Positions 183-11,805 of a stretch of DNA of 11,805 nucleotides are shown piece after piece. Numbering within the stretch: position 1 is the stretch's first letter; each line of letters starts with the position of its first letter. Origin of the DNA: Fibrobacterota bacterium (lineage in GTDB: Bacteria; Fibrobacterota; Chitinivibrionia; Chitinivibrionales; JANQEN01); NCBI GenBank assembly GCA_030619215.1, contig JAUXBV010000042.1, positions 1-11,805 on the forward strand, given 5' to 3'. Both the position numbers and the translations under genes were made by a program. The notes beneath the pieces were generated by a model. The model was not told the DNA's origin. It saw only the letters and a program-made list of their open reading frames with translations, and made no database searches.

Positions 183-255
183 TCCCAACAAAAACGTTAC
201 AGCTTATGGGTGTGTTTAGCATGGGAGAAACCCAAAGCTGAACTTCGCGTTGTGG
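183..255 (+). repeat. attC-like folded site 1 (left edge of the vapBC cassette)
   Basis: An imperfect 73-bp palindrome. CAGCTT-A-TGGGT (200-211) pairs with ACCCAAAGCTG (230-240), leaving A206 unpaired on the left arm. AACG (193-196) pairs with CGTT (248-251). The left end TCCCAAC (183-189) is close to the integron R'' consensus RYYYAAC. The right end GTTGTGG (249-255), preceded by GC, occupies the place of R' (GTTRRRY) but departs from the consensus. Size, arm layout and the extra base on the left arm are those expected of attC. No integrase gene is in the window, so the assignment rests on structure only. Confidence 0.5.
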
Positions 256-425
256 GTATATATTAATAATAGACGAAGAAAAGAGCTAAAACATGAAACT
301 TTACTTTCTTCATCTCTTCGCTTAACGAGATTCTTACTGTAAATTGCTGCTATTATCCCTTTTTTCGTACACATATACTCATAGAATTAATTTTGTGTGC
401 AAAAAATTTATTTATATAATTTTTC

Positions 426-454
426 TTGAAATCACACATCATTTTGTGTATATT
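426..454 (+). promoter_or_regulatory. probable vapBC promoter
   Basis: TTGAAA (426-431) and TATATT (449-454) are separated by 17 bp, a good sigma-70-type match. Transcription would start near 460, leaving a leader of about 15 nt that is almost entirely ribosome binding site. A second possible -10, TATAAT at 415-420, has only a poor -35 (near 392-398). The region is AT-rich, so chance matches are likely. Confidence 0.45.
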
Positions 455-461
455 TATGTGT
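434..461 (+). promoter_or_regulatory. candidate vapBC autoregulatory operator
   Basis: ACACAT (434-439) and ATGTGT (456-461) form an inverted repeat with a 16-bp spacer that brackets the proposed -10 box. The octamer TTTTGTGT also occurs twice, at 391-398 and 442-449. VapBC complexes usually repress their own promoter by binding inverted repeats through the antitoxin's DNA-binding domain. The position fits that, but binding is inferred. Confidence 0.35.
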
Positions 462-476
462 AGGAGGTGATTTCTT

Positions 477-677
477 ATGGCAACAAATTTAGATATTGAT
501 TCTTCCCTGATTGAGGAAGCTCGTATTATTAGTGGTAAACCAACAAAAAAAGCCGCTGTTATTGAAGCGCTAAATGAGTATATTCAAAGGCGGAAGCAAT
601 TGAAAATTACCAATTTTTTTGGTAAAATTGAATATGATTCTAAATATGACTATAAAAAGCAAAGACATGTAAAATGA
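477..677 (+). CDS. vapB: VapB-type antitoxin
   Basis: A 66-residue antitoxin of a type II toxin-antitoxin pair. Residues 1-40 (MATNLDID..., then SLIEEARIISGKPTKKAAV and ALNEYIQRRK) follow the pattern of the VapB ribbon-helix-helix family: a short beta strand and two helices that dimerise and bind DNA. The basic, aromatic tail (about 41-66, with NFFGKIEYD) is where such antitoxins usually wrap and block the toxin active site. The start is set by a near-perfect Shine-Dalgarno sequence, AGGAGGTGA at 462-470, six bases before the ATG. It overlaps the toxin gene by 4 bases (ATGA), so translation is probably coupled. The pair is noticeably AT-richer than the large minus-strand genes, consistent with horizontal transfer. 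Confidence 0.85.
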   Translation: MATNLDIDSSLIEEARIISGKPTKKAAVIEALNEYIQRRKQLKITNFFGKIEYDSKYDYKKQRHVK

Positions 678-1084
678 AAACCCTTATCGATACTTGCATT
701 TGGTCAGAGGCTTTACGACATAAAAAGAAAAGATCCCTCTCCGGAAATACTGCTGAGCTGATTGAATTAATAAAAGAAGCACGAGCTGAAATAATTGGAG
801 CAATAAGACAAGAAATTTTATCAGGTATTAAGTCCAAGAAACAATTTGAGGAATTACGTGAGCAACTTAAGGAATTTAAAGATTTAGAAGTTATTACATC
901 AGATTATGAAAAAGCAGCAGAAAACTTTAACACCTTACGCTCGAAAGGGATACAAGGTTCAAACACAGATTTTTTAATATGCGCAGTAGCAGAAAGACTA
1001 GGAATTCCAATATATACGACTGATAAAGACTTCTTAAGTTTTGCAAAACATCTCCCGATCCAACTATATATACCACGCCCTTAA
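674..1084 (+). CDS. vapC: VapC-type PIN-domain ribonuclease toxin
   Basis: A 136-residue PIN-domain protein, the usual length for VapC toxins. The acidic residues that coordinate the active-site metal are all visible: Asp6 in the opening LIDTCIW, Glu47 in RQEIL, Asp99 in NTDFLICAVAERLG, and Asp117 in YTTDKDF. PIN toxins are Mg2+-dependent RNases that typically cut tRNA or rRNA and halt translation when free of antitoxin. The exact target cannot be read from the sequence. The ATG lies inside the vapB stop (ATGA), and no good ribosome binding site precedes it, so expression probably depends on coupling to vapB. The intact active site argues for a working toxin. No obvious terminator follows; the attC-like site starts 42 bases after the stop. 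Confidence 0.88.
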   Translation: MKTLIDTCIWSEALRHKKKRSLSGNTAELIELIKEARAEIIGAIRQEILSGIKSKKQFEELREQLKEFKDLEVITSDYEKAAENFNTLRSKGIQGSNTDFLICAVAERLGIPIYTTDKDFLSFAKHLPIQLYIPRP

Positions 1085-1126
1085 TTACTGATAATTCAAG
1101 CTATACTATGTAGTATTTACGACGAG

Positions 1127-1202
1127 CCACAACCGGAAAATTGAAGCTGAGGGGTGGGCGTATGACGTTGGCGTACCCATAGCTCAATTTCCGCGGTTTC
1201 CG
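1127..1202 (+). repeat. attC-like folded site 2 (right edge of the vapBC cassette)
   Basis: An imperfect 76-bp palindrome. GGAAAATTGAAGCT (1135-1148) pairs with AGCTCAATTTCC (1181-1192). The left arm carries two extra bases: A1144 and one A of the 1137-1140 run. AACC (1131-1134) pairs with GGTT (1195-1198). Unpaired extra bases confined to one arm are a hallmark of attC folding, and site 1 has its extra base on the same side. The left core CCACAAC (1127-1133) is the exact reverse complement of the right core of site 1. The right core GTTTCCG (1196-1202) deviates from GTTRRRY. Both sites share the inner AGCT...GGGT...ACCC...AGCT layout and a TTC(C)GCG run before the right core. Confidence 0.5.
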
Positions 1203-1264
1203 AAACCTGATGCTGCGGTACAAGGTGCTGATTTATCAGTACCCAGTGCAAATTTATTTGTATA

Positions 1265-1340
1265 AGTGGTTGTACCAAAGGTATAACTCAAAGTGCTATA
1301 GCTACTTTTTGTTTATATGAGCTATAGTCTGACAACCACT
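1265..1340. repeat. 76-bp nested inverted repeat
   Basis: The outer arms AGTGGTTGT (1265-1273) and ACAACCACT (1332-1340) match over 9 of 9 bases. The inner arms CTATAGCT (1296-1303) and AGCTATAG (1320-1327) match over 8 of 8. The cores run GTT...AAC, opposite to attC, so this is not simply a third attC site. There is no open reading frame inside. It may be a small non-autonomous element or a structured RNA; its identity is unknown. Confidence 0.5.
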
Positions 1341-1391
1341 ATAGTAAAATATTCATATCCAATGCAAAATATTAATTCTTAAATATAGAAA

Positions 1392-1425
1392 GGAGCAGCT
1401 GCCAGAGGGTTTGGGCACCTGCTCC
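1392..1425 (-). terminator. probable rho-independent terminator of the minus-strand operon
   Basis: Read on the minus strand, GGAGCAGGTGCC (1425-1414) pairs with GGCAGCTGCTCC (1403-1392): 12 positions with one C-C/G-G mismatch and a 10-base loop. It is followed by TTTCTATATTT. The stem is long and GC-rich and lies 57 bases past the stop of the 49-residue gene, a sensible end for the VIT-VWA operon. The T-run is interrupted, which lowers confidence slightly. Confidence 0.6.
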
Positions 1426-1482
1426 ATCGGGGTGGGGCCTGTTACTTATATGCGCACATCAAGGGAATCCTCCCCATTTTTA

Positions 1483-1632
1483 TTACATAACAAGAGAGAA
1501 AATTTTATAAAAGAATAAAATGACAAAAACCAGATAAATTATTGCCCAAATAGGCATGTAATAATTGAGATTAGGATGGGACACATTCCTGTTTGAGTGA
1601 AGTATTATTTTAGTCGTATCTAATGGTTGCAT
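1483..1632 (-). CDS. 49-residue single-pass membrane miniprotein
   Basis: An open frame of 49 codons from ATG at 1632-1630 to TAA at 1485-1483. Its ribosome binding site is among the best in the window: GGAAGGAGGG, ending six bases before the ATG. Residues 1-23 (MQPLDTTKIILHSNRNVS...) are polar. Residues about 24-48 (YYMPIWAIIYLVFVILFFYK and onward) form one clear hydrophobic helix. It lies 60 bases downstream of the second VIT-VWA gene on the same strand and just before the terminator, so it is probably the last gene of that operon. I recognise no family. It could be a small accessory subunit or an envelope stress peptide, but nothing in the sequence decides this. Confidence 0.6.
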   Translation of the reverse strand: MQPLDTTKIILHSNRNVSHPNLNYYMPIWAIIYLVFVILFFYKIFSLVM

Positions 1633-1692
1633 GATATCCCTCCTTCCAAAATTGTGAAATACTTTTTAGTTGATAGAGGTGATAAAAATCTT

Positions 1693-3810
1693 TTACTTAA
1701 TCAGCCTCATTTTCATCATCTTAATAACATTTCCAGCCTTAAGCATTGCAATATAAAATCCACTTCCCAAACTTTTACCGTTTTCATCTTTCCCATACCA
1801 TTTCACTGAGAAGTTTCCGCCCGCTGTCATTTCGTTCATCAGGGTATTTACCAGTTTGCCCTTTGAGTCAAATATCTTGAGCTGCAGGGAAACCGCCTTT
1901 TGGGATCTTGGTACTGAGAACTTTATGGTTGTAATGTTTTTAAAAGGATTGGGAAAGTTCTGATACAGCTTTACGGCGTTTGCATAGGGGATAGTTTTAT
2001 CCTGTACTGATGTCGGGTTATCATCTATTACTATAAAAGAGGTAAAGGGTGTAATGATGCAGTATCTTTTTCCAAGGTATTTAACGGCATTAACAAGCTC
2101 CGGCACTTTTCCATAAATTTCAATCTCATCAAGCAAAAAATCGATTTTAGCGGAAGCCCACATACGAGCCACAAAGGGGTGGTTGGGCATGTCTGATGGA
2201 AATGTGAGGTCGTTTGATAATGAAAAAGGTTGAGAACCTATATTTCCGGAGAAGGTTATTTTGAATGTGCCGGTGTTTCTGTAACGTCCCAGTATTGTTA
2301 GCTGAGCGCTCGCATAAAGATTCGGGATTGTTCTGGGGAATATATCGTATTTGTCAAACCCGTCATAGTCAATGGAGATATTTTTAATAAGCGGATAGGA
2401 GATTTTTTTCATAAAGCTCTCCATAACGATATCGATGCTGTCGTCCTCCATTATCATTATTGAGAAGCCGCTGTTCTGTTTGGCTAAAAGCTTTAAAAAT
2501 GATTCTTCCGCTTCGTCACCGATGCCAAAAGTAAATATAGACACACTGTCTGAATTGTATTTTGCAACAGTATCAATAACACTTTCAGCGCTCGTACTAA
2601 TCGGCCAGGTCGGTTTCCCATCGGTAAGAAATACAAGGGCATTTACGCTTGTATCATCCCAGGTGCTATTCAATGAAACCTTAAAGGCATCCTCCATGTT
2701 TGTCATGCCTACCTCTCCAAGTTCGTTAATAAATTTATGCGCCTCTTCCCGGGTAGCATAAGAGTCTGCGCCGACAAGATCGTTTTTAAAAGGATGCGTG
2801 CCTGTATTAAAAGCAACTATGTTAAACATGTCCTTCGGATTAAGCATGTCTACCATGGCGTTTAAGGATTTACGGAGCTGTTCAATTCTGTCTCCCGCCA
2901 TGGAGCTTGATATATCCGCTACAAAGGCAACATTCTTTTTTATAACTTGCGACTGAGATATGTTATCCGGAGGAGTTACCCACAGCAGGTAGTATGAGTC
3001 ATCGCCGGCACTGTCAAAAAACATGGCGCTGTCCGTATTCGGGGCATAGGTTAGGTGGTTTAATTCAAAATCATCGTTTTTCGGTTGATATAAAAGTTTG
3101 AGGTCTTTTTCCGAATGGGCATTCTCTTCGCCATAGGTTACCTGATATTCATAGCCTGATATTTTATTAATAACGATTCCGCTTGTATTGTCATGGGTTG
3201 GCGATATTAGTGACAATATCTCTTTCTGCGAAGAGAGACCTATTGAGATGGACGCTCTTTCAACCGGTTTGGATGATAAATTAACGGTTTTCATAAAGAA
3301 TTTGTATTCAATATTTCCATTGTCATAGGGCAGCAGTTCCGTATATGTAATCTCTATGCGTCTTTCGCTCATTTGATGCCCATCCGGTTCTATTGGAAAT
3401 ACCGAGAGCTTGAATATGTTATCGCCCATATATTCAAGCAGAGCAGGGTCAATGAGTTTTTTTACCGTATTCTCGTAGATCGACTGCGCAGTATCAGAAT
3501 CCATAACCTGGGCTTGTATGGGGACACCATTTACCCAGAGAATAAGCTCCATAACGATAGCGTTTTCCGGAAGGGGGAAGAAAAAGATTCCTTCCAGCCG
3601 CTGGTTTGTCTCGTTTTTAAAGGTCTGGTCAACATGGGTTACAGCCATCTGGTCGGTAATGGTGACAGTTGCGTCGTAATTTTTTAACCAGAGCGGGAAG
3701 TAGCTGTTGTTGGTCAGGGGCCTGCGTGCGTATAAAGACCCTATTGCAAAAATGCTTTCAGTGATGAGAAGCAGTGTGATTGCAGTTGCAAAGAACATTT
3801 TTTTTAACAT
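1693..3810 (-). CDS. secreted VIT-VWA protein with C-terminal sorting-like domain (copy 2)
   Basis: A 705-residue exported protein built like inter-alpha-trypsin inhibitor heavy chains. A signal peptide covers about residues 1-22 (MLKKMFFATAITLLLITE...). A VIT domain follows at about 40-170, then a von Willebrand A domain at about 290-470 with an intact metal-binding (MIDAS) site: DISSS at 299-303, Thr370 in GMTN, and Asp397 in LTDG. TPFTSFIVID near 587-597 matches a motif common in bacterial VIT-VWA proteins. The last 90 residues start with YQNFPNPF and end GSGFYIAMLKAG...MRLIK, a FlgD-like / T9SS type A sorting-like domain. The start at 3810 is chosen over an ATG 12 codons upstream because AAAAGGAGA precedes it at proper spacing and it gives a clean signal peptide. 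It lies 50 bases after the previous gene, probably in one operon. Likely role, by inference: metal-dependent surface adhesion. Confidence 0.82.
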   Translation of the reverse strand: MLKKMFFATAITLLLITESIFAIGSLYARRPLTNNSYFPLWLKNYDATVTITDQMAVTHVDQTFKNETNQRLEGIFFFPLPENAIVMELILWVNGVPIQAQVMDSDTAQSIYENTVKKLIDPALLEYMGDNIFKLSVFPIEPDGHQMSERRIEITYTELLPYDNGNIEYKFFMKTVNLSSKPVERASISIGLSSQKEILSLISPTHDNTSGIVINKISGYEYQVTYGEENAHSEKDLKLLYQPKNDDFELNHLTYAPNTDSAMFFDSAGDDSYYLLWVTPPDNISQSQVIKKNVAFVADISSSMAGDRIEQLRKSLNAMVDMLNPKDMFNIVAFNTGTHPFKNDLVGADSYATREEAHKFINELGEVGMTNMEDAFKVSLNSTWDDTSVNALVFLTDGKPTWPISTSAESVIDTVAKYNSDSVSIFTFGIGDEAEESFLKLLAKQNSGFSIMIMEDDSIDIVMESFMKKISYPLIKNISIDYDGFDKYDIFPRTIPNLYASAQLTILGRYRNTGTFKITFSGNIGSQPFSLSNDLTFPSDMPNHPFVARMWASAKIDFLLDEIEIYGKVPELVNAVKYLGKRYCIITPFTSFIVIDDNPTSVQDKTIPYANAVKLYQNFPNPFKNITTIKFSVPRSQKAVSLQLKIFDSKGKLVNTLMNEMTAGGNFSVKWYGKDENGKSLGSGFYIAMLKAGNVIKMMKMRLIK

Positions 3811-3860
3811 AACGTCTCCTTTTATTAAAGAGTGGGTTGCAAACAATACATTTCTTTTGT

Positions 3861-6173
3861 CTATTTTATTATTATCCTTTTGTTAATCTTAAAGAAGCTG
3901 TTCCGGACACAGAGTACATAAAAACCTTTCGCGATAGGACTTCCGGATAAATCATTCATATTCCAGGTCCAGTTGAAATTCTGTTTTGCAAGGTCGGCAA
4001 TTCTCCAGCGCATGACAATTCTGCCTTTCAGGTCAAAAATGGTGACATAGCCGTTTATGTGATTTTGAGGAACATTGGTCAATGAAAGTTGAATAGAATT
4101 ACCGAGATGGTTTAAACGTAATGCAGGTTTTTTAGTTGTTGAGGTTATTTCATTTATACCTGTAGTGCCGTTTGTGTCATTACCATTATTATTATTTGGT
4201 TGGTTGCTGTAATATTCCTCAGCAGAGACCCAGTTTCCGTTCTCATCCATGAGAGAATCGGCAACAGCAAGGAATGCTGTGTATTTACAGAGAACCGTAT
4301 GTGCAAGGCTCAGTTCCAGAATCTTGTCTTTATTATGTTCATCATTCTGCGCAATCTGATCATTCATGAGGTATTCGATTGTCTCACGCGCCCAGATTTT
4401 CGGCACAAAGTAACAGACTTTATTATTGTTTACAAAATGAACGTTATATGATTCTGAAACCGGCGTGGTATTTGAGTACCCGCTCAGCGTTATTGTGCGG
4501 GGGCCGCCGCTAGTATATTGGCCGAAAATTTTAATAGGCATACCATACCAGAGGCTGCTCATTTCAGAGCAGACGATGCTTGTCGGTATATCGGGGCTGC
4601 CCCAGTCAATAGAGAGATTGGAGATTTGCGGTATTCTGATACGTTTCCAGAACTCCTCAACAGTCGGGGCAATATCGTCGAAATTGACAATATGCCTCCC
4701 TGCGCCACCTCCGGCTTCTGCAGCGCCGTCAATAAGCTCCTGGTTTGTTCTGGCTCCTACAGCAAAAGCAAAAACAGTAGTACTTGACGGGTCATTTTTT
4801 ATTGCAGCATACATCTCATCAACCCCGTAAATCTCTCCATCAGTTATAAGGGCGAGGATTCGAACTCTGCCGCCCGTTAAGGGTGTTTGAAGTGCCTTTT
4901 GCACTCCGGCAAGCATTTCCGTTCCGCCGCTTGCATCAAGCTGGTCGATCCAACTGTGTGCGGTGGCAAGGTTCTCCGCAGTAGCCGGTTGCGGCTCGGG
5001 GAAGAGAGATGTGTGTGTGCTGTTAAAAGCAAGAAGTGAAATCCGGTCGTCGGGAGTTGCCTTGTCAAGCATCTTATGAACTACTTCACGGGCAAGCACG
5101 ATTGGGTTCCCGCCCATTGATCCGGATCTATCAATGACAAATACTATATCTATTAATTGCGGAGCCTGTCCTGTATCATGAAGGTCAGGATAAATCTGCA
5201 TGGCAAAATAACCGTCTTTGCCGTCATTATAGGAGAGCAGGCTGACATCCCGCTGCGCCTCCTCCCTGCTGAAACGGACAACAATATCGTTGTTGGGGAT
5301 TGTCGGTTTGCTTTTCAGGAGTATAAGCGACGGGTTTACACCGTCAGGGAAATGCTCGTCCTGCGAGATGAGATCATAGTTAATAGCGGTCTGTTCTGTA
5401 ATGATGGGATGGATTGTTACCTCATGAGTAGGACAGGACAGGTTGTTGATTTTATACGGAGCCAAAATCAGGACATAAAACTCAAGGCTTGCCCCGGGTC
5501 TTTCATGCGGAAATTCAATTATCGGGTCCAGCGGGTTATCACCGTACCTGTCTTCCGCAATGGTTGTCGGGAAATTGAAATCAAACTTTTCCATATCATA
5601 TACAAGTGGTGTGCTGAAGGTGATGGTTATCTTTACACTGTCTTTTGGTGGAATGTTGCAGATATTCTGAACAAATATCCCGTCCTGTACCTGTGTAAGA
5701 AGCGAAGCCTGCATACCCTGTGCGTTTGCAGTGTCATAGATATTTTGCGCAGTCTCCTTTTTCATGATCTCCGCATGATACAGGCCCTTGCTTGTTCTGA
5801 AATCCATCCCGTGTACTGCCCCGTCATTCGGGAGAGGGAAAACATAGGTAGCATCAAAAGGAAGATTGAATGGATTGTTGAAAATCTGTGTTACTTTTCC
5901 ATGTGCAAAACCGTCACCAATTATAACCTTTACAACGGTCTTTACAGATGGAATTACCACCTCTTCCTTTGTGCTGTCCGGCACCTTAATGGATATTTCT
6001 CCATTACCAAGATAGAGTGTATCCCCGACATGAAATGAGGTATCGCTGACAGTATCAGCAGGTGTGGGGACATATCCGACACAGGTTCCTTCCTTGAGGC
6101 TGTCGGCAGGAATTGAGGCATAAAGCGATGAAACAAGTATTATGATTGAAAAGAGTGATGAAATGGTTCTCAT
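3861..6173 (-). CDS. secreted VIT-VWA protein with C-terminal sorting-like domain (copy 1)
   Basis: A 770-residue exported protein with the same architecture as its downstream neighbour but clearly diverged. A signal peptide covers about 1-20 (MRTISSLFSIIILVSSLYAS). A VIT domain lies at about 75-195 and a VWA domain at about 338-510, with an intact MIDAS site: DRSGS at 348-352, Thr418 in GGTEM, and Asp445 in ITDG. HTVLCKYTAFLAV near 625-637 is the counterpart of the neighbour's TPFTSFIVI motif. An Asn/Gly/Thr-rich linker (about 657-672) leads to a C-terminal domain (about 685-770; TIFDLKGRIV, then AKGFYVLCVR) like T9SS type A sorting domains. The start follows AGGAGAGG at good spacing. The gene heads an operon with the next VIT-VWA gene and probably the miniprotein. 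A shared palindrome lies about 120 bp upstream. Its ligand cannot be told from sequence. Confidence 0.83.
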   Translation of the reverse strand: MRTISSLFSIIILVSSLYASIPADSLKEGTCVGYVPTPADTVSDTSFHVGDTLYLGNGEISIKVPDSTKEEVVIPSVKTVVKVIIGDGFAHGKVTQIFNNPFNLPFDATYVFPLPNDGAVHGMDFRTSKGLYHAEIMKKETAQNIYDTANAQGMQASLLTQVQDGIFVQNICNIPPKDSVKITITFSTPLVYDMEKFDFNFPTTIAEDRYGDNPLDPIIEFPHERPGASLEFYVLILAPYKINNLSCPTHEVTIHPIITEQTAINYDLISQDEHFPDGVNPSLILLKSKPTIPNNDIVVRFSREEAQRDVSLLSYNDGKDGYFAMQIYPDLHDTGQAPQLIDIVFVIDRSGSMGGNPIVLAREVVHKMLDKATPDDRISLLAFNSTHTSLFPEPQPATAENLATAHSWIDQLDASGGTEMLAGVQKALQTPLTGGRVRILALITDGEIYGVDEMYAAIKNDPSSTTVFAFAVGARTNQELIDGAAEAGGGAGRHIVNFDDIAPTVEEFWKRIRIPQISNLSIDWGSPDIPTSIVCSEMSSLWYGMPIKIFGQYTSGGPRTITLSGYSNTTPVSESYNVHFVNNNKVCYFVPKIWARETIEYLMNDQIAQNDEHNKDKILELSLAHTVLCKYTAFLAVADSLMDENGNWVSAEEYYSNQPNNNNGNDTNGTTGINEITSTTKKPALRLNHLGNSIQLSLTNVPQNHINGYVTIFDLKGRIVMRWRIADLAKQNFNWTWNMNDLSGSPIAKGFYVLCVRNSFFKINKRIIIK

Positions 6174-6293
6174 GTTTCCTCTCCTTTTGTTAAATTTGAA
6201 TATTATGTTATTTTTTAGAAAACAAGCTTTATTAATAATTTACTATAATTTAGGGAGTTTTTCGACAGTAAAAGTGGGAAAAAATGCAAAAAA

Positions 6294-6312
6294 TGTTTTC
6301 TATCAGAAAACA
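6294..6312. promoter_or_regulatory. 19-bp palindrome upstream of the VIT-VWA operon
   Basis: TGTTTTC (6294-6300), a 5-base spacer TATCA, then GAAAACA (6306-6312). The arms and spacing are identical to the palindrome at 11369-11387 upstream of the TIGR02147-family gene; over 21 bases the two sites agree at 18. It lies 121 bases before the start codon, in the 289-bp gap 6174-6462, which otherwise shows only AT-rich sequence and a weak CTATTT/AAATAG stem (6374-6392). It could be a repressor operator or a small RNA stem. Confidence 0.5.
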
Positions 6313-6462
6313 GCAAAACGGGTTTGTTTTATATATAACTTTTTTGAAATTAATCACTTATAAAATGGGTTGGCTATTTTCCATTGAAATAGGAGTTAAA
6401 AATTCTGGAAACAAGTTACCAATGTTATAAAGGGTAAAAATTTAAGTGAAAAAAGAAAGGAA

Positions 6463-8184
6463 TTATTTAACAACAGGAAGGGTGCTTCTTTGAATAGAAC
6501 CGTCTTTAAAAAGATATTCAACAAAAATTAAACCTGAAGAAATAGATACAGGCATGTAAATTCTATTGCTATATTTTCCAATTTTGATTGAAGAAAGCTG
6601 CTTACCTGCAGAGTTATAAATACTTATTGCATGAATTTTATTCTGCGGGATAGTAAACATGAGCTGATTATTTTTGCTTTGAACAATTGGTTGTTGTTTA
6701 AGCTTTTGATTGTAATTATCAGAAATTGGTGTTGGACTACCATATATAATCTCTAGAGTTTGATCGCCTAATTTTATGCTAAGCTGGTCATATTTTGACC
6801 AGGGATTGGATGTTTGAAAAGTTGGGTATGTCCAGTAATATTTATAGCTTATAGCGTTAAAAGCTGCGCGCCTCGCCTTTACGGAAAAATGTACAGAATC
6901 AGAGGTTAGGATAACAGTAAGAAGGGTGTCGGCAAGCTCGATTAAACCTGGAACACAGGCTGTATCAGGGTGCATATTTTTAAGTGTGTCGCTGCCGTCA
7001 ACGGTTAGAGAAATTGAATTTTTCAGAATGATATCCGGTACCAGGCAATTACCATCGGGATCTAATAAATGAATATATACCGTTTCAGAAGAGGTTTCGA
7101 AATAGTATGGTGTGTCATTTATATGTGATGCTATGTGTGCTGGTGTTATATCAAATGTTGTCAGGGAATCCTCGAGAGTATATAAATAGTAGTTCCAGGA
7201 GTCGTCCAACAGCTCAACTCCAGAGCCATCTGTCCGTGAAATGAAATTGAAATAGTGATAGTTAGCACTGCCTTGCGTGAATGCGCTCCACAGGCTCCCT
7301 TTCTTTTTGAGAACAGTTCCTTCGTTACAGGCAGCACCGGTAGCAGAAATTTGATTAACTGGTTTTGTAGAGGGTTGGCTGTCGTAAACAAAACTGCCGG
7401 ACTGGTCTATATATACCTTTCCTGATAGTGTTCCTACTGCTTCCAGGGAAAATGCAGAAACAGTTTCCTGATTATCGATATCATAGCCGGTTTCGCCGCT
7501 CCAGTTTGAGCCGTCCCATGAGAAGAAACGGATAAGGCCGTGTGTCCCGACTGCCCAGATACATGACTGGTTTCCCTTTGCCAGCCCAGGGCCGCCGTAA
7601 AGTCTGGTTATTCTACAGTTTGGGTTGGGAAGGTTGATTGTTAAGGTGTCTGTTTTGAAAACATTAAAGCTCTGGCCAATCATGTGGTGTACAGCAATTT
7701 TATTAGAAGCAACTGCTGCGAGAAAGACAATATCAAGATTATCAGCAGTATAGGCGAAAATGCCGAAAACCGAATCTACAGAGCCAACCGGGCTTTCCAC
7801 AGGGTCATCCACAGCCATCTTGTTGTTACTTGTAACAGTTGGCGGCGATTCAAGGACTGCATGCATGAGATACAGCTTATCAGAAGTTGAGAACAGGGCT
7901 ATATTATTCGAATCATTGCCAGCCATGAAGGCTTTCACCGGAGTCAGGTTTGTGTATGAAGATGGCAGGTTATAATCAAGGGTATCTCCGCTTCGCTGCC
8001 AGTGCTTGTTGTTGAAATATGAATGCAGAAACAGGAGGTTTGTATGTACCGAGGAGGTGCCGGCAGACAGGTCGCTAAGGAGACAAAGAATAATACCCAT
8101 AACAATAGCAAGGATAGGCAAACTATACCTTGTCCCGGTAATGCTTGAATGTTCCTTTTTTGTATTTGTTTTATAATAAAACAT
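6463..8184 (-). CDS. exported protein of unknown function with C-terminal sorting-like domain
   Basis: A 573-residue protein I do not recognise. A long polar start (1-20) is followed by a hydrophobic stretch at about 21-40 (SLPILAIVMGIILCLLSDLS), read as a signal peptide or anchor. Residues about 50-340 are rich in short beta-strand-like segments separated by Gly/Asp/Asn turns (such as GTHGLIRFFSWDGSNWSG), suggesting a beta-propeller, but no clear repeat can be set by eye. Residues about 500-573 (NNQLMFTIPQNKIHAISIYN, then GKQL and SSGLIFVEYLF) resemble a T9SS type A sorting domain. The ribosome binding site is weak (only GAG near the ATG). An internal Met29 would cut into the hydrophobic stretch, so the upstream start is kept. 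It lies between the Kelch lipoprotein and the VIT-VWA operon, all on the same strand. Confidence 0.7.
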   Translation of the reverse strand: MFYYKTNTKKEHSSITGTRYSLPILAIVMGIILCLLSDLSAGTSSVHTNLLFLHSYFNNKHWQRSGDTLDYNLPSSYTNLTPVKAFMAGNDSNNIALFSTSDKLYLMHAVLESPPTVTSNNKMAVDDPVESPVGSVDSVFGIFAYTADNLDIVFLAAVASNKIAVHHMIGQSFNVFKTDTLTINLPNPNCRITRLYGGPGLAKGNQSCIWAVGTHGLIRFFSWDGSNWSGETGYDIDNQETVSAFSLEAVGTLSGKVYIDQSGSFVYDSQPSTKPVNQISATGAACNEGTVLKKKGSLWSAFTQGSANYHYFNFISRTDGSGVELLDDSWNYYLYTLEDSLTTFDITPAHIASHINDTPYYFETSSETVYIHLLDPDGNCLVPDIILKNSISLTVDGSDTLKNMHPDTACVPGLIELADTLLTVILTSDSVHFSVKARRAAFNAISYKYYWTYPTFQTSNPWSKYDQLSIKLGDQTLEIIYGSPTPISDNYNQKLKQQPIVQSKNNQLMFTIPQNKIHAISIYNSAGKQLSSIKIGKYSNRIYMPVSISSGLIFVEYLFKDGSIQRSTLPVVK

Positions 8185-8217
8185 AACAATCTCGTTTGTT
8201 ATACTTAAAGCACAAGG

Positions 8218-8252
8218 TACAAATTTACCCAGTGCCCTTCAGGGTATTTGTA
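8218..8252. repeat. 35-base hairpin between the Kelch and unknown exported genes
   Basis: TACAAAT-TT-ACCC (8218-8230) pairs with GGGTATTTGTA (8242-8252) around the loop AGTGCCCTTCA, with two extra bases on one arm. It abuts the larger palindrome at 8252-8310. No T-run follows on either strand, so a simple terminator is unlikely; attenuation or mRNA end protection is possible. Confidence 0.45.
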
Positions 8253-8310
8253 TAACATTGTGTAGAAGCGGAAAGTCTATTGCATAGCCTTCCGCCTAAC
8301 ACACTGTTAT
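8252..8310. repeat. 59-bp near-perfect palindrome overlapping a stop codon
   Basis: ATAACA (8252-8257) matches TGTTAT (8305-8310); TGTGT matches ACACA; GCGGAA (8268-8273) matches TTCCGC (8290-8295); and CTAT matches ATAG around a 3-base loop. Only a few positions mismatch or bulge. It contains the TAA stop of the Kelch lipoprotein gene (8309-8307). No T-run follows, so it is not a canonical terminator. It may mark the 3' end of the upstream transcript or be a REP-like element. Confidence 0.55.
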
Positions 8311-10451
8311 GGGTAATATCGTAACACAGATCCCAACTGACCGAAGTTAGGAGGCCCCTGTTCTGCTCCTCCCAGTATGTACATTATATTATGATTGACA
8401 CAAATTGCAAAGCTGTGACGGGCTGAAGGGAGTGGTTTTTTCCCTGTCCATGTATCGGTTGCCGGGTTATACATTTCCATACTTGAAAGGGCGGTGAACT
8501 CATCCGGAAACATTGATACAGCGCCGCCGAGTGCGTATATTTTCCCGTTAACAACAGCAGCGCCAAAATTCATACGTCCGGTGTTCATCGCGCGAATCGG
8601 GCTGGTTGTATTGCTTACGGGATCGTACCTTTCAACTGATGTTAACGCTGTTGGATCCTGCAGGTTATTAATACCTCCCATGATGTAGACCGTGTCATTA
8701 AGCACAACAACCTGGTGGTATGCCCGCGCCATACTCATCGACCCCTTGGTGGCCCATGTTCCGGTTGCCGGGTCAAAAACATTTATCTCTGAAGAGGTTT
8801 CATACAGCCCTGTCAGGCCGCCGAATACATAAATAGAATCGTTAATAACGCATGCTGCATGGCCAAAAAGAGCGGAGGGCATCTGAAATTCAGTATCCCA
8901 GGTGTTGGATTGGGTATTATAAGTTTCAATGGTTTTGAAATTTTCGTCGTAGTTGGTGCCTCCAATGACGAATAATTTTGTACCGACCGCGACAACTGAT
9001 GCAGCAGAACGGGCTGTTGGCATGGTGCCGAATGATGACCAGCTGCTGTCAGTAGCATTGAACAGCTCCATTGAGGCGAGCGCGTTCGGGTACCAGTCAT
9101 CGACAATGAAAATGTCTTCAGCTCCGCCAATAGCATATAAAGTGTCATTTATAACAGCGGCCCCGCTGAATCTGCGCTTGTGGACAAGCGGATAAAAATC
9201 TTCCCATGTGTCAGTTGGGATAAGCCCCTGTACCGTAACCTTGCAACTGTCACGCCATGTATCACCCTTTTCGTCCAAAGCTTCGACGCAAACCAGGTGT
9301 ACTCCGGTGTCCTGCCAGGTATAGGTTAGGGTGTCATCTCCTTCCTTGGTGTCAACATTTGCGGTGCGGACTATTTCAAGCGGGTCTTTAGTGTACCATC
9401 TTATCAGGATATTTTTCCTAACTTTATTTTTAAAATTAACGGCGAGATTGACGCTTTGTCCGTTAACAACAGTATCAGTGTCGCTGGGCATAAGGGTCCA
9501 TGTAAAGAATGTCATTAACACCGTTGGAGATATTGCATTGATATCTGCCCTTGGAGAGAAGTCGCTTTCGTTTGTCAAAGTGTCAACGGATTTAACCTGG
9601 TATTGGTAGAAACAGGAATTTGTATCAGATAAATCCTTAAAGATAGTGTCACTGTAAACAGTATCATAGGCTGTGGCAATCTTTATAAAGCCGGTGTCGG
9701 TTGTATCCCTTCTATACACATTGTACCCAAGAAGGTCTGACACATTTACTTTTTCCCATGTTAAGATAACCGCGCCACTTACAGTATCATAGGCAGCAGA
9801 TAAAAAGCCCGGGGCCGGTGGTTTATCGTTTGGATCAAGAGAGAGATTTTTCGTATCAAGTTGTGTGGTTAATCCTGAGAATACAGAAATGTTTGTATCT
9901 ACACCTCTTAAATAACCGGGGTATTCATAATAGACATTATGGGTACCGGCAAGAATGAAGCTGATGATAAAATAGCCTGAGTCATCGGAGTGTGCATCGT
10001 AAGATGTCCCTGGAATATAAATTGAAACGCCCGCAGTTGCAGCGCTGTCTACTAATACTCTTCCGGAGATATTTCCCGGAGCCCACATGGTATCAATTCC
10101 AAGATCAAGTTTTATTGAGTCATTTGCATAAAGTATACTATCAATAACTATGACAAGAGAGCTGTCTTGTGTAAAGCCCTCAAGGTTGTAAATACCCGCT
10201 TTAATTTTTTCTATTAAGTATTCACCGTCTATATTTGTAACATCCCAGAATTCTATTGATGAGGCTGTATCAACAGGAGCAACCCGAACAAAGGCGTTAT
10301 TAACGGGATTGCCCAGGGAGTCAACAAGTATACCGCCTACCGTTTCAGTGCCGCTGCCGCCGAAAGTGGAGACGGTAGTCCCGTCACTGCAACAAAGAAA
10401 CAGCACGAACATGCTGCTGACCAGCGATAATGCAACGAAGAAGCGTTTCAT
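8307..10451 (-). CDS. probable lipoprotein with regulatory-like, FnIII-like and Kelch-propeller domains
   Basis: A 714-residue envelope protein. Residues 1-20 form a signal peptide ending in FLCC, so lipid attachment at Cys20 or Cys21 is likely, though the lipobox is not textbook. Then come two carboxypeptidase-regulatory-like beta sandwiches (about 37-120 and 126-205), a fibronectin type III-like domain (about 213-305; GYNVYRR and YQYQVKSVD are typical), a PKD/Ig-like domain (about 315-408), and six Kelch repeats (about 420-714), each marked by a hydrophobic-GG pair (YAIGG, FVIGG, YVFGG, YIMGG, YALGG, YILGG) that probably close into a propeller. It lacks the sorting-like C-terminus of its neighbours. 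The start lies 3 bases after the regulator's stop with only a weak ribosome binding site, so translation is probably coupled. Role inferred: surface binding of protein or glycan. Confidence 0.8.
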   Translation of the reverse strand: MKRFFVALSLVSSMFVLFLCCSDGTTVSTFGGSGTETVGGILVDSLGNPVNNAFVRVAPVDTASSIEFWDVTNIDGEYLIEKIKAGIYNLEGFTQDSSLVIVIDSILYANDSIKLDLGIDTMWAPGNISGRVLVDSAATAGVSIYIPGTSYDAHSDDSGYFIISFILAGTHNVYYEYPGYLRGVDTNISVFSGLTTQLDTKNLSLDPNDKPPAPGFLSAAYDTVSGAVILTWEKVNVSDLLGYNVYRRDTTDTGFIKIATAYDTVYSDTIFKDLSDTNSCFYQYQVKSVDTLTNESDFSPRADINAISPTVLMTFFTWTLMPSDTDTVVNGQSVNLAVNFKNKVRKNILIRWYTKDPLEIVRTANVDTKEGDDTLTYTWQDTGVHLVCVEALDEKGDTWRDSCKVTVQGLIPTDTWEDFYPLVHKRRFSGAAVINDTLYAIGGAEDIFIVDDWYPNALASMELFNATDSSWSSFGTMPTARSAASVVAVGTKLFVIGGTNYDENFKTIETYNTQSNTWDTEFQMPSALFGHAACVINDSIYVFGGLTGLYETSSEINVFDPATGTWATKGSMSMARAYHQVVVLNDTVYIMGGINNLQDPTALTSVERYDPVSNTTSPIRAMNTGRMNFGAAVVNGKIYALGGAVSMFPDEFTALSSMEMYNPATDTWTGKKPLPSARHSFAICVNHNIMYILGGAEQGPPNFGQLGSVLRYYP

Positions 10452-10454
10452 AGT

Positions 10455-11285
10455 TTATTTAGCATCCCGCTCTTTTGCAAGCGGGAAAATTTGAAAGTTA
10501 AACTGATATACCCGATCAACCCTGTTTTTATCGTGTTTTACTAAATCTAGCACTTCCCTTCTAAAAATTGCAAGTTTGTCTTCGATTTCCTTGTATGCTT
10601 CCTTTGAGAGGCTTAATGTTAACGTCGAGATACTCCTTTTTTCACGAGGAATACGGTCAATAGCCTCCTTTGCCAGATCCATTGTTGCAAGCTGAAAATT
10701 ATGCACCGCCACAAGCGGAATGTGCGGTACGGTTGTTACGGTTTTGTTGGTTACCCGATACGTATGATCTTCTTTTTTTTCAATAAGCCCCAGCTTCTTC
10801 AGAAGCTCAACCGATTTTTTTGCTTCGGTCGGGCTGATGGGCGGATCGAGCGTTTTAGCAAGCTGCTGATAGTCTCCTCTAAAGGGAAAATAATTCAACA
10901 ACTCTCGTATTGCAACATTGTACCATTTATCAAAATACATATATTGCTCGGCAGTAAGCTCATGGACTTTGGATTTGCGCATAGCGAGCAGTTTTTCAAA
11001 ATAATATTTCTTTCTGATGTGTTGGTTTGCCTGGTCATAAAGGACAATCAACTCAAAATATTCAGTCTCTTTTTTATTGAATTTGAAGAGCTCTGCAAAC
11101 CTGAAGATCGTGTTTTGAGAGATGTTTCGTTTTCCCTGCAGGATGTTTGAGAAAAAACCCGCGGATTTAAAGCCGACCTTCTGCCCTATATATCTATAGG
11201 AAAAGGAGGGCTGTTTCTTCTTGTGCGCTTCATATAAATCCTTAAGAAGCTGCCGGTAATTGATATACTCGAAAACATTTGCCAT
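10455..11285 (-). CDS. TIGR02147/DUF4423-family putative transcriptional regulator
   Basis: A 276-residue protein matching the TIGR02147 family, which is expanded in Fibrobacter. The opening MANVFEYINYRQLLKDLYEA is characteristic. Residues about 28-70 (SYRYIGQKVGF, SAGFFSNILQGKRNIS) look like an XRE-type helix-turn-helix, and about 110-180 resemble a winged helix (LLKKLGLIEKKEDHTYRVT). DNA binding is therefore likely, but the family's function is poorly established. ATG at 11285 is chosen over the one three codons upstream: AAGGAG sits only 2 bases from the upstream ATG, 11 from this one, and family members begin at this point. It is followed 3 bases later by the Kelch lipoprotein gene, which it probably controls together with itself. 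A palindrome about 80 bp upstream is a candidate operator. Confidence 0.82.
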   Translation of the reverse strand: MANVFEYINYRQLLKDLYEAHKKKQPSFSYRYIGQKVGFKSAGFFSNILQGKRNISQNTIFRFAELFKFNKKETEYFELIVLYDQANQHIRKKYYFEKLLAMRKSKVHELTAEQYMYFDKWYNVAIRELLNYFPFRGDYQQLAKTLDPPISPTEAKKSVELLKKLGLIEKKEDHTYRVTNKTVTTVPHIPLVAVHNFQLATMDLAKEAIDRIPREKRSISTLTLSLSKEAYKEIEDKLAIFRREVLDLVKHDKNRVDRVYQFNFQIFPLAKERDAK

Positions 11286-11368
11286 AATGCACATTTCTCC
11301 TTACACCAATAAATATAAGGAAAAATCAGCGGTTTGAATCAAAAAAAGTTTAGAGAATTAGTATTTTC

Positions 11369-11387
11369 TGTTTTCCAGCAGAAAACA
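11369..11387. promoter_or_regulatory. 19-bp palindrome upstream of the TIGR02147-family gene
   Basis: TGTTTTC (11369-11375), spacer CAGCA, GAAAACA (11381-11387); one further outer pair, C11368-G11388, extends it. It is the same motif as at 6294-6312. On the minus strand a -10-like TATACT (11392-11387) touches its edge, so a bound protein could block transcription start. It is 84 bases from the chosen start codon. The rest of the gap 11286-11527 is AT-rich with no supported gene. Confidence 0.5.
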
Positions 11388-11527
11388 GTATAATTGGATA
11401 AAATATAATAATACACAAGGTGAGGGTATATAAAGAACTTCCTGTCAGGTATACAAGAATTGCATAAATAAGATGGAATTATTCATTATATTTAGAATAT
11501 TATTATAGCAATTACAGGTCGTATATA

Positions 11528-11725
11528 CTAGCTCTTTTTCTCAGGCTCGGTCTCTTTGTCATCAGTCACATGCTCAATTTCGTTTTTCATGTCTTTGGAT
11601 GCTTTTTTAAACTCTTTAATCCCTTTTCCAAGCCCACTTGCCAACTCGGGAATCTTTTTCGCGCCAAAGAGAATGATGACAATTGCTAAGATAATGAGAA
11701 GTTCCTGTCCGCCTAAAAAGCCCAT
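11528..11725 (-). CDS. tatA: twin-arginine translocase subunit TatA/TatE
   Basis: A 65-residue TatA-family protein. A short N-terminus precedes a single membrane helix (about 7-20, [16 protein letters not shown]). The conserved Phe20-Gly21 hinge is followed by [21 protein letters not shown], the amphipathic helix typical of the family. A charged tail (about 45-65) completes it. TatA oligomerises in the inner membrane to let folded proteins with twin-arginine signals cross, together with TatC. No tatC or tatB is in the window, so the gene stands alone here. AAGGGAG ends about six bases before the ATG. The sequence cannot separate TatA from TatE. It is probably housekeeping and unrelated to the surface genes downstream. 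Confidence 0.92.
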
Positions 11726-11747
11726 GGTTTTCTCCCTTTTTATATAG

Positions 11748-11776
11748 GTTATACAAGCTGTTTACTATTTTTTTAA
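11748..11776 (-). promoter_or_regulatory. candidate tatA promoter
   Basis: On the minus strand TTAAAA (11776-11771) and TATAAC (11753-11748) are 17 bp apart, placed to start transcription about 15 bases before the tatA ribosome binding site. Each box matches the sigma-70 consensus only partly, and the region is AT-rich. Confidence 0.3.
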
Positions 11777-11805
11777 TCTCTCTAATATAATACAGAATTT
11801 TTTGA

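Follow-up and report, generated by a model that had tools for sequence, protein, structure and literature searches.

A probable integron gene cassette carrying a vapBC toxin-antitoxin pair, and a family of related attC sites, in a Fibrobacterota genome

Known cassette systems and the locus described here

Clusters of attC sites without an integrase (CALINs) have been described, and off-target insertion is one of the origins proposed for them in the relevant passages of PMC8618304, PMC9668308, PMC9024848 and PMC12444791. According to the parts of PMC11023631 and PMC8876359 that concern them, toxin-antitoxin cassettes have promoters of their own, and an excerpt of PMC6557892 places a PIN plus ribbon-helix-helix cassette from an oral metagenome among the toxin-antitoxin cassettes of chromosomal integrons. 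The list of integron phyla in PMC8618304 omits Fibrobacterota. Among the matches listed for integron or attC combined with Fibrobacter, Chitinispirill or Chitinivibri, no paper was on this subject by its title, which does not prove that none exists.

The locus studied here lies in a window of 11,805 bp, the whole stretch of DNA that was analysed, which is the entire contig C363 of a MAG of 3.64 Mb in 579 contigs with a completeness of 68.6%. Like sedentary chromosomal integrons and CALINs, this genome has attC sites of R''-L''-L'-R' arrangement with extra bases on one arm and a G^TT boundary, genes on the strand that runs towards attC, and several related attC sites. Unlike them, it is a Fibrobacterota MAG in which half of the sites have a contig to themselves and several lie next to unrelated genes. 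As in CALINs and dispersed cassettes, the attC sites here occur without an integrase above cut-off, in a MAG that is incomplete. Cassettes inserted at attG sites have reportedly been the subject of a 2024 Nature Microbiology paper, which is cited in PMC12444791. The present sites resemble such insertions in being single cassettes in chromosomal intergenic regions by G^TT-like targets, and differ in that we deduce the insertions from a natural MAG in which no integrase was detected. Like the oral-metagenome cassette of PMC6557892, the cassette has a two-gene toxin-antitoxin operon with a promoter of its own, active there by demonstration and here by prediction; unlike it, the antitoxin matches PF09957 and the host belongs to a different phylum. 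The kind of element is known; its host and its scattered distribution are unusual.

The vapBC cassette and its two attC sites

We conclude with high confidence that positions 250-1196 (+ strand) are an integron gene cassette of 947 bp, bounded by the G^TT points 249/250 and 1196/1197, with a VapBC toxin-antitoxin pair that is predicted to be self-expressed. This reading is backed by the anatomy of the locus, the covariation of the attC stem, the relation between the cassette start and its R'', the family of sites in the genome and the occurrence of the VapC family in cassettes elsewhere. A preliminary description of this DNA had placed two folded sites of attC size on either side of vapBC, and its coordinates are right on direct reading. 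It had also stated that the site 1 right core and the site 2 left core are exact reverse complements, the relation that a single cassette must have, and this can be read directly from the bases: the cassette starts with GTTGTGG, its own R'' is CCACAAC, and the two agree at 7/7 positions. The G+C content of the cassette is 33.4%, against 41.3% for 1203-11805.

Site 1 occupies 183-255 (+ strand), with R'' TCCCAAC at 183-189 and R' GTTGTGG at 249-255; between them lie a spacer (190-195), the L''/L' stem (196-211 with 230-243) and a second spacer (244-248), and its pairing is supported by covariation. Its arms read GTT[A]CAGCTT[A]TGGGT / ACCCA AAGCTG AAC, with extra bases at 199 and 206. Site 2, the cassette's own attC, occupies 1127-1202 (+ strand), with R'' at 1127-1133, R' GTTTCCG at 1196-1202 and a GGGT...ACCC stem whose arms read TTGA[A]GCT...GGGT / ACCC..AGCTCAA; its R' was probably supplied by the downstream DNA. 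In the canonical attC arrangement, the unpaired (extrahelical) base or bases lie on one arm. Direct reading bears out the earlier statement that both sites here carry their extra unpaired bases on the same arm, which is the 5' arm. Site 1 scored 90 bits with our covariance model R1 and 74 bits with model R2, being a training site of both; site 2 scored 58 bits with R2, which was trained on it, and E=1.7e-4 with R1, which was not. Compared with shuffles, the folding energies gave z values on the two strands of -2.5 and -2.1 for site 1 and -2.0 and -2.3 for site 2. Folding energy by itself is weak to moderate evidence; the comparative evidence is strong. A scan of the window found no Rfam family at its gathering score, and a terminator scan of 200-1300 found none.

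Both genes lie on the + strand. The 66-aa antitoxin VapB (477-677) starts at the ATG at 477, behind AGGAGG at 462-467, stops at 675-677 and matches PF09957 VapB_antitoxin (E=9.7e-15). The 136-aa PIN-domain toxin VapC (674-1084) matches PF01850 PIN (E=1.7e-10) and NF047959 TA_toxin_VapC (90.2 bits, cut-off 80); it gave no match to a PDB chain at E<=0.001. The two frames overlap as ATGA at 674-677, and vapC, on the attC strand, ends 43 nt short of R''. VapBC is a predicted type II toxin-antitoxin pair, and both proteins look like plain members of their families. Ahead of vapB, at 426-454 (+ strand), lies a sigma-70-type promoter-like sequence, TTGAAA-17-TATATT, with 10/12 consensus positions; promoter-like sites numbered 6 in the region against 3.9 expected, which is not significant alone. 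It overlaps an inverted repeat, CACACA...TGTGTA (433-450), which is possibly the VapB operator. The promoter-like block is kept 5' of homologous vapB genes at two loci in other genomes (L134 and L143) and less so at a third (L127).

Site 1 ends a non-coding segment (1-248, + strand) that is repeated on C73, C176 and C302. The three copies elsewhere in the genome match it over 251 bases (96% identity), 226 bases (85%) and 135 bases (80%), and positions 150-251 likewise have three copies. The copies separate at the GT(T) of the R' core and run on into different DNA beyond G^TT, and the segment is possibly the 3' part of an ORF-less cassette. As the contig begins at base 1, the left start of the segment lies outside the view. 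The starting point of this repeated element could not be placed, and the start of the element with site 1 disagrees with its R''.

Several further repeats and genes were observed in the window. Positions 1-26, ending in GTTAAGT, have an exact 26-base match on C125 (L019) and on C73, whose left flanks differ; on C125 the stretch is upstream of a two-gene operon, which we take to be a DUF4160/DUF2442-like pair, and it is perhaps an insertion target or a promoter. A TCTGGGGACGG-type motif at 27-40, near the start of the repeated element 1-248, also occurs twice on C369 upstream of its attC (L021 445-470) and resembles a short dispersed repeat. Nine bases past site 2, positions 1211-1250 belong to a different family of intergenic palindromic repeats (CTGATAAATCAGTACC...), with matches on C110, C409, C241, C389, C176 and C540. 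A hairpin-like GGAGCAG...CTGCTCC at 1393-1424, between site 2 and the neighbouring gene, has no Rfam match in the window scan. Two tandem VIT plus von Willebrand A proteins follow on the minus strand (1693-6173), with C-terminal FlgD_ig-like domains that are weak in the second, and intergenic inverted repeats of TGTTTTCTATCAGAAAACA type lie at 6206-6312 and 11369-11393. The closest named relatives of a TIGR02147-type protein at 10455-11294 are labelled Chitinivibrionales (74% identity) and Chitinispirillia (71%); Chitinispirillum is placed in the Fibrobacteres by the title of PMC4814513.

The family of sites, the integrase search and the placement of cassettes

The preliminary description took the cassette to be an isolated one, which does not hold: the further attC sites with similar arms that were sought with covariance models and BLASTN bring the family to 22 related sites on 16 contigs. 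R1 was built from site 1, its three copies and one site on C369, a contig reached through a weak DNA match and whose hairpin was spotted by eye; site 2 was left out. Over the 3.64 Mb it returned 9 further sites at E<0.01, site 2 of the window among them. R2 was built from 14 sites; alignment A3 had 16 matches, from which those on C169 (E 1.09) and C245 (E 5.97), both weak in the whole-genome R1 scan, were left out beforehand. Run with stricter filters, and scoring 82 candidates in each genome, R2 gave 18 sites in its own genome and hit one of 59 other genomes, weakly (E 0.0047). Weak sites on C171 (E 0.0086) and C50 (E 0.0079) were found later, and BLASTN gave two sites of a second subtype, on C417 and C10; the partial site C246:37-83 is excluded from the count. 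The first R2 scan missed 4 of the 22 sites, and the second site of C417 and the C10 site were never found by R2. R' begins with GTT in 21 of the 22 sites (GTA on C302) and R'' ends with AAC in 20 (AGC on C375, ACC on C249), core-letter counts in which both the models and our reading of the sites favour AAC/GTT. Except among the four copies of the segment with site 1, the flanks differ from site to site.

The stem covaries across the family. In 19 aligned sites, 98.2% of 276 cells are paired (96.5% in the outer helix, 98.6% in the inner), a value reached by 0 of 500 shuffles and somewhat inflated since alignments A3-A5 were fitted to the model structure. When the 3' side is slid by 1-3 columns, pairing falls to 23-42%. 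Both sides have changed in 10 of the 15 pairs. Two of five measures separate less: both-side changes, for which 16/500 shuffles were as high, and further pair types (88/500). An unpaired base on the 5' arm, at column 17, is present in 19/19 rows of alignment A5.

Five contigs (C363, C50, C58, C171 and C417) have 2-3 sites on one strand, giving six closed cassettes. Besides the vapBC cassette, the start agrees with the cassette's own R'' at 7/7 positions on C171, 6/7 on C58, 6/7 on C417, and 5/7 and 3/7 on C50, where cassette C50-1 has only GTT in common with its R''. At the four variable core positions the agreement is 4, 4, 3, 3, 2 and 0 (16 of 24), which 10 of 720 re-pairings reach. Of the 19 sites examined, 8 (C363b, C58b, C171b, C511, C375, C249, C55 and C50b) have an open frame on the attC strand that stops 13-43 nt ahead of R''; the remaining 11 have none that stops within 43 nt ahead of it. 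The products encoded before attC include a ribbon-helix-helix (RHH) plus PIN pair (C511), a DUF3592 protein (C58), a weak DUF4258 match (C249) and unknowns. The pair on C511 (L031), directly before its attC, is a second toxin-antitoxin-like one.

The intI gene that the preliminary description proposed to look for was not found: TIGR02249 gave 7 matches on four contigs of the incomplete MAG, none above the cut-off for an integron integrase. Such an integrase scores above cut-off in 10 of 120 genomes, six from the same order and four from elsewhere in the phylum. The best match in the MAG is a tyrosine recombinase frame on C405 (L009 3-893), cut by the contig start, whose visible half reaches 109.5 bits for TIGR02249. 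It has an N-terminal extension of about 125 aa, and its closest homologues are 401-420 aa long, with scores intermediate between XerA-type and integron integrases. The five full-length homologues tested reach 177-212 bits against a cut-off of 265, and 4 of the 5 score higher for the XerA-type NF040815; we do not call the C405 recombinase IntI because of these scores. Around 12 integrase matches in relatives, R2 found nothing in the short flanks and R1 one poor match (E 0.15). A generic stem finder marked 5 places in nine stretches around the relatives' integrases (100.9 kb), about the rate in shuffled sequence (2 in 46 kb). In the same-order genome G012, two sites whose cores agree at 7/7 positions lie a few kb from the integrase, which hints at an array. 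For the present genome, the integrase may be on missing sequence, be supplied in trans or have been lost.

We suggest a mechanism for the movement of the vapBC cassette. The attC at 1127-1202 would fold into a single-stranded hairpin, and IntI, a tyrosine recombinase provided either by the host or in trans, would cleave the G^TT point. The cassette could then be excised as a circle and inserted at another attC, at attI or at a secondary G^TT site; at the present locus it would have been inserted behind an older attC. The promoter-like sequence would be active and drive vapBC, and the addictive toxin-antitoxin pair would stabilise the locus.

Half of the 22 sites are the only ones on their contigs, and several lie next to unrelated chromosomal genes; for this reason we think that off-target insertion, and not retention in a single array, accounts for the position of most cassettes. 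A single site was detected on 11 of the 16 contigs, and 8 of these (C73, C176, C249, C315, C369, C375, C511 and C10) have at least 680 bases on each side with no second site detected. Neighbours of single sites include AlgH/YqgE (C73), a CBAH hydrolase (C176), a sigma-70 factor (C375) and a gamma-glutamyltranspeptidase (C511). Lone sites beside such genes suggest, and do not prove, insertion outside an array. The R' cores speak less clearly: GTT is followed by a purine in all six closed-cassette starts, and among the 16 other R' cores by a purine in 12 and a pyrimidine in 3 (GTTTCAC on C73, GTTCCCC on C369 and GTTTCCG at site 2 of the window), the last being the GTA of C302. Insertion at chromosomal G^TT-like targets that contribute R' would explain the odd cores, site 2's included.

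An alternative is that one or a few chromosomal integron arrays were fragmented by assembly, so that the cassettes are not truly dispersed. The 579 contigs and 68.6% completeness would allow for this, and the five multi-site contigs hold 11 of the 22 sites. The sites on C302, C487 and C55 lie less than 600 bases from a contig end, neighbours may have been overlooked by a model whose first scan missed 4 of 22 sites, and the purine after GTT in 12 of the 16 non-opening R' cores is what cassette starts show. Against a broken array stand the clear flanks of those 8 single sites and the unrelated genes next to them, and we regard it as rather unlikely. Our own proposal, which we make tentatively, is that in this Fibrobacterota lineage cassettes exist as independent mobile units spread across the chromosome, each insertion bringing one or two of them to an intergenic G^TT-like site, with the integrase elsewhere or lost; self-expressed toxin-antitoxin cassettes (vapBC and the RHH plus PIN pair on C511) may fix such insertions, and the genome would keep a record of natural off-array (attG-type) integration.

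Relatives of the locus and the nature of the element

VapC has 6717 relatives at E<=1e-8. From 248 loci in public genomes we kept 80 for comparison (51-63% identity), and a vapB relative is present at 79 of them. The generic stem finder placed an attC-like site just downstream of vapC at 4 of the 80 loci, against 2/235 displaced controls, and none at the other 76; R2 scored an attC at one locus only (L134, E 0.0089). At two loci, L127 and L134, both in MAGs labelled Proteobacteria, an exact 7/7 start is also present upstream (displaced controls, 0/235). L134 and L143, from separate MAGs, have a nearly identical cassette after quite different left flanks, with the common sequence starting at the identical base (TTGGAA); in L143 the cassette start is preceded by A instead of G, and the DNA just past attC is alike in the two. 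The MAGs with L134, L143 and L127 are labelled Proteobacteria or Deltaproteobacteria, and the DNA downstream of these VapBC cassettes looks like further palindromes. Carriage on a cassette is a minority state in this VapC family, yet real.

These loci also bear on whether the hairpins could belong to a family of REP/MITE or IS200-like elements whose ends flank vapBC by chance. Site 1 does end a repeated segment of about 250 bp, and the genome has other palindromic intergenic repeats. Yet the sites keep a common stem architecture with compensatory changes while their flanks differ (beyond the four site 1 copies), 8 of 19 sites come just after the end of a frame on the attC strand, the start/R'' relation is specific to cassettes, and two VapC relatives in other MAGs have the same anatomy with a different attC sequence; such an origin is very improbable. 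An ordinary chromosomal vapBC locus with two terminators or chance hairpins would fit the modest folding z-scores, the abundance of vapBC loci and the 76 of 80 without an attC-like site, and we consider it scarcely credible given the empty terminator scan of 200-1300, the finding of site 2 by a model untrained on it, the covariation and the 7/7 core relation.

The preliminary description proposed to look in related genomes for a clean presence or absence of the cassette. Five same-order loci (L145-L149), at which the right-hand neighbour gene has a homologue of 36-59% identity, have no vapBC and no model match in flanks of about 1.5 kb; the comparison is a distant one, and a clean empty site was not seen. 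Such a site is not demonstrable in the set searched because this holds no same-genus genome and the neighbour gene has no match at E<=1e-60 in the same-family genome G001. The integron cassette reading of the preliminary description is supported: the attC-like scores are strong, related sites exist elsewhere in the genome, and the five same-order loci did not show flanks conserved together with vapBC.

These results extend integron cassettes to an uncultured branch of the Fibrobacterota and define an attC family, with a covariance model and 22 sites. One VapC family is cassette-borne in this genome as well as in MAGs labelled Proteobacteria, and the attC sequences differ between the two. Those single sites that lie next to unrelated genes could be used as natural cases of cassette insertion outside an array.
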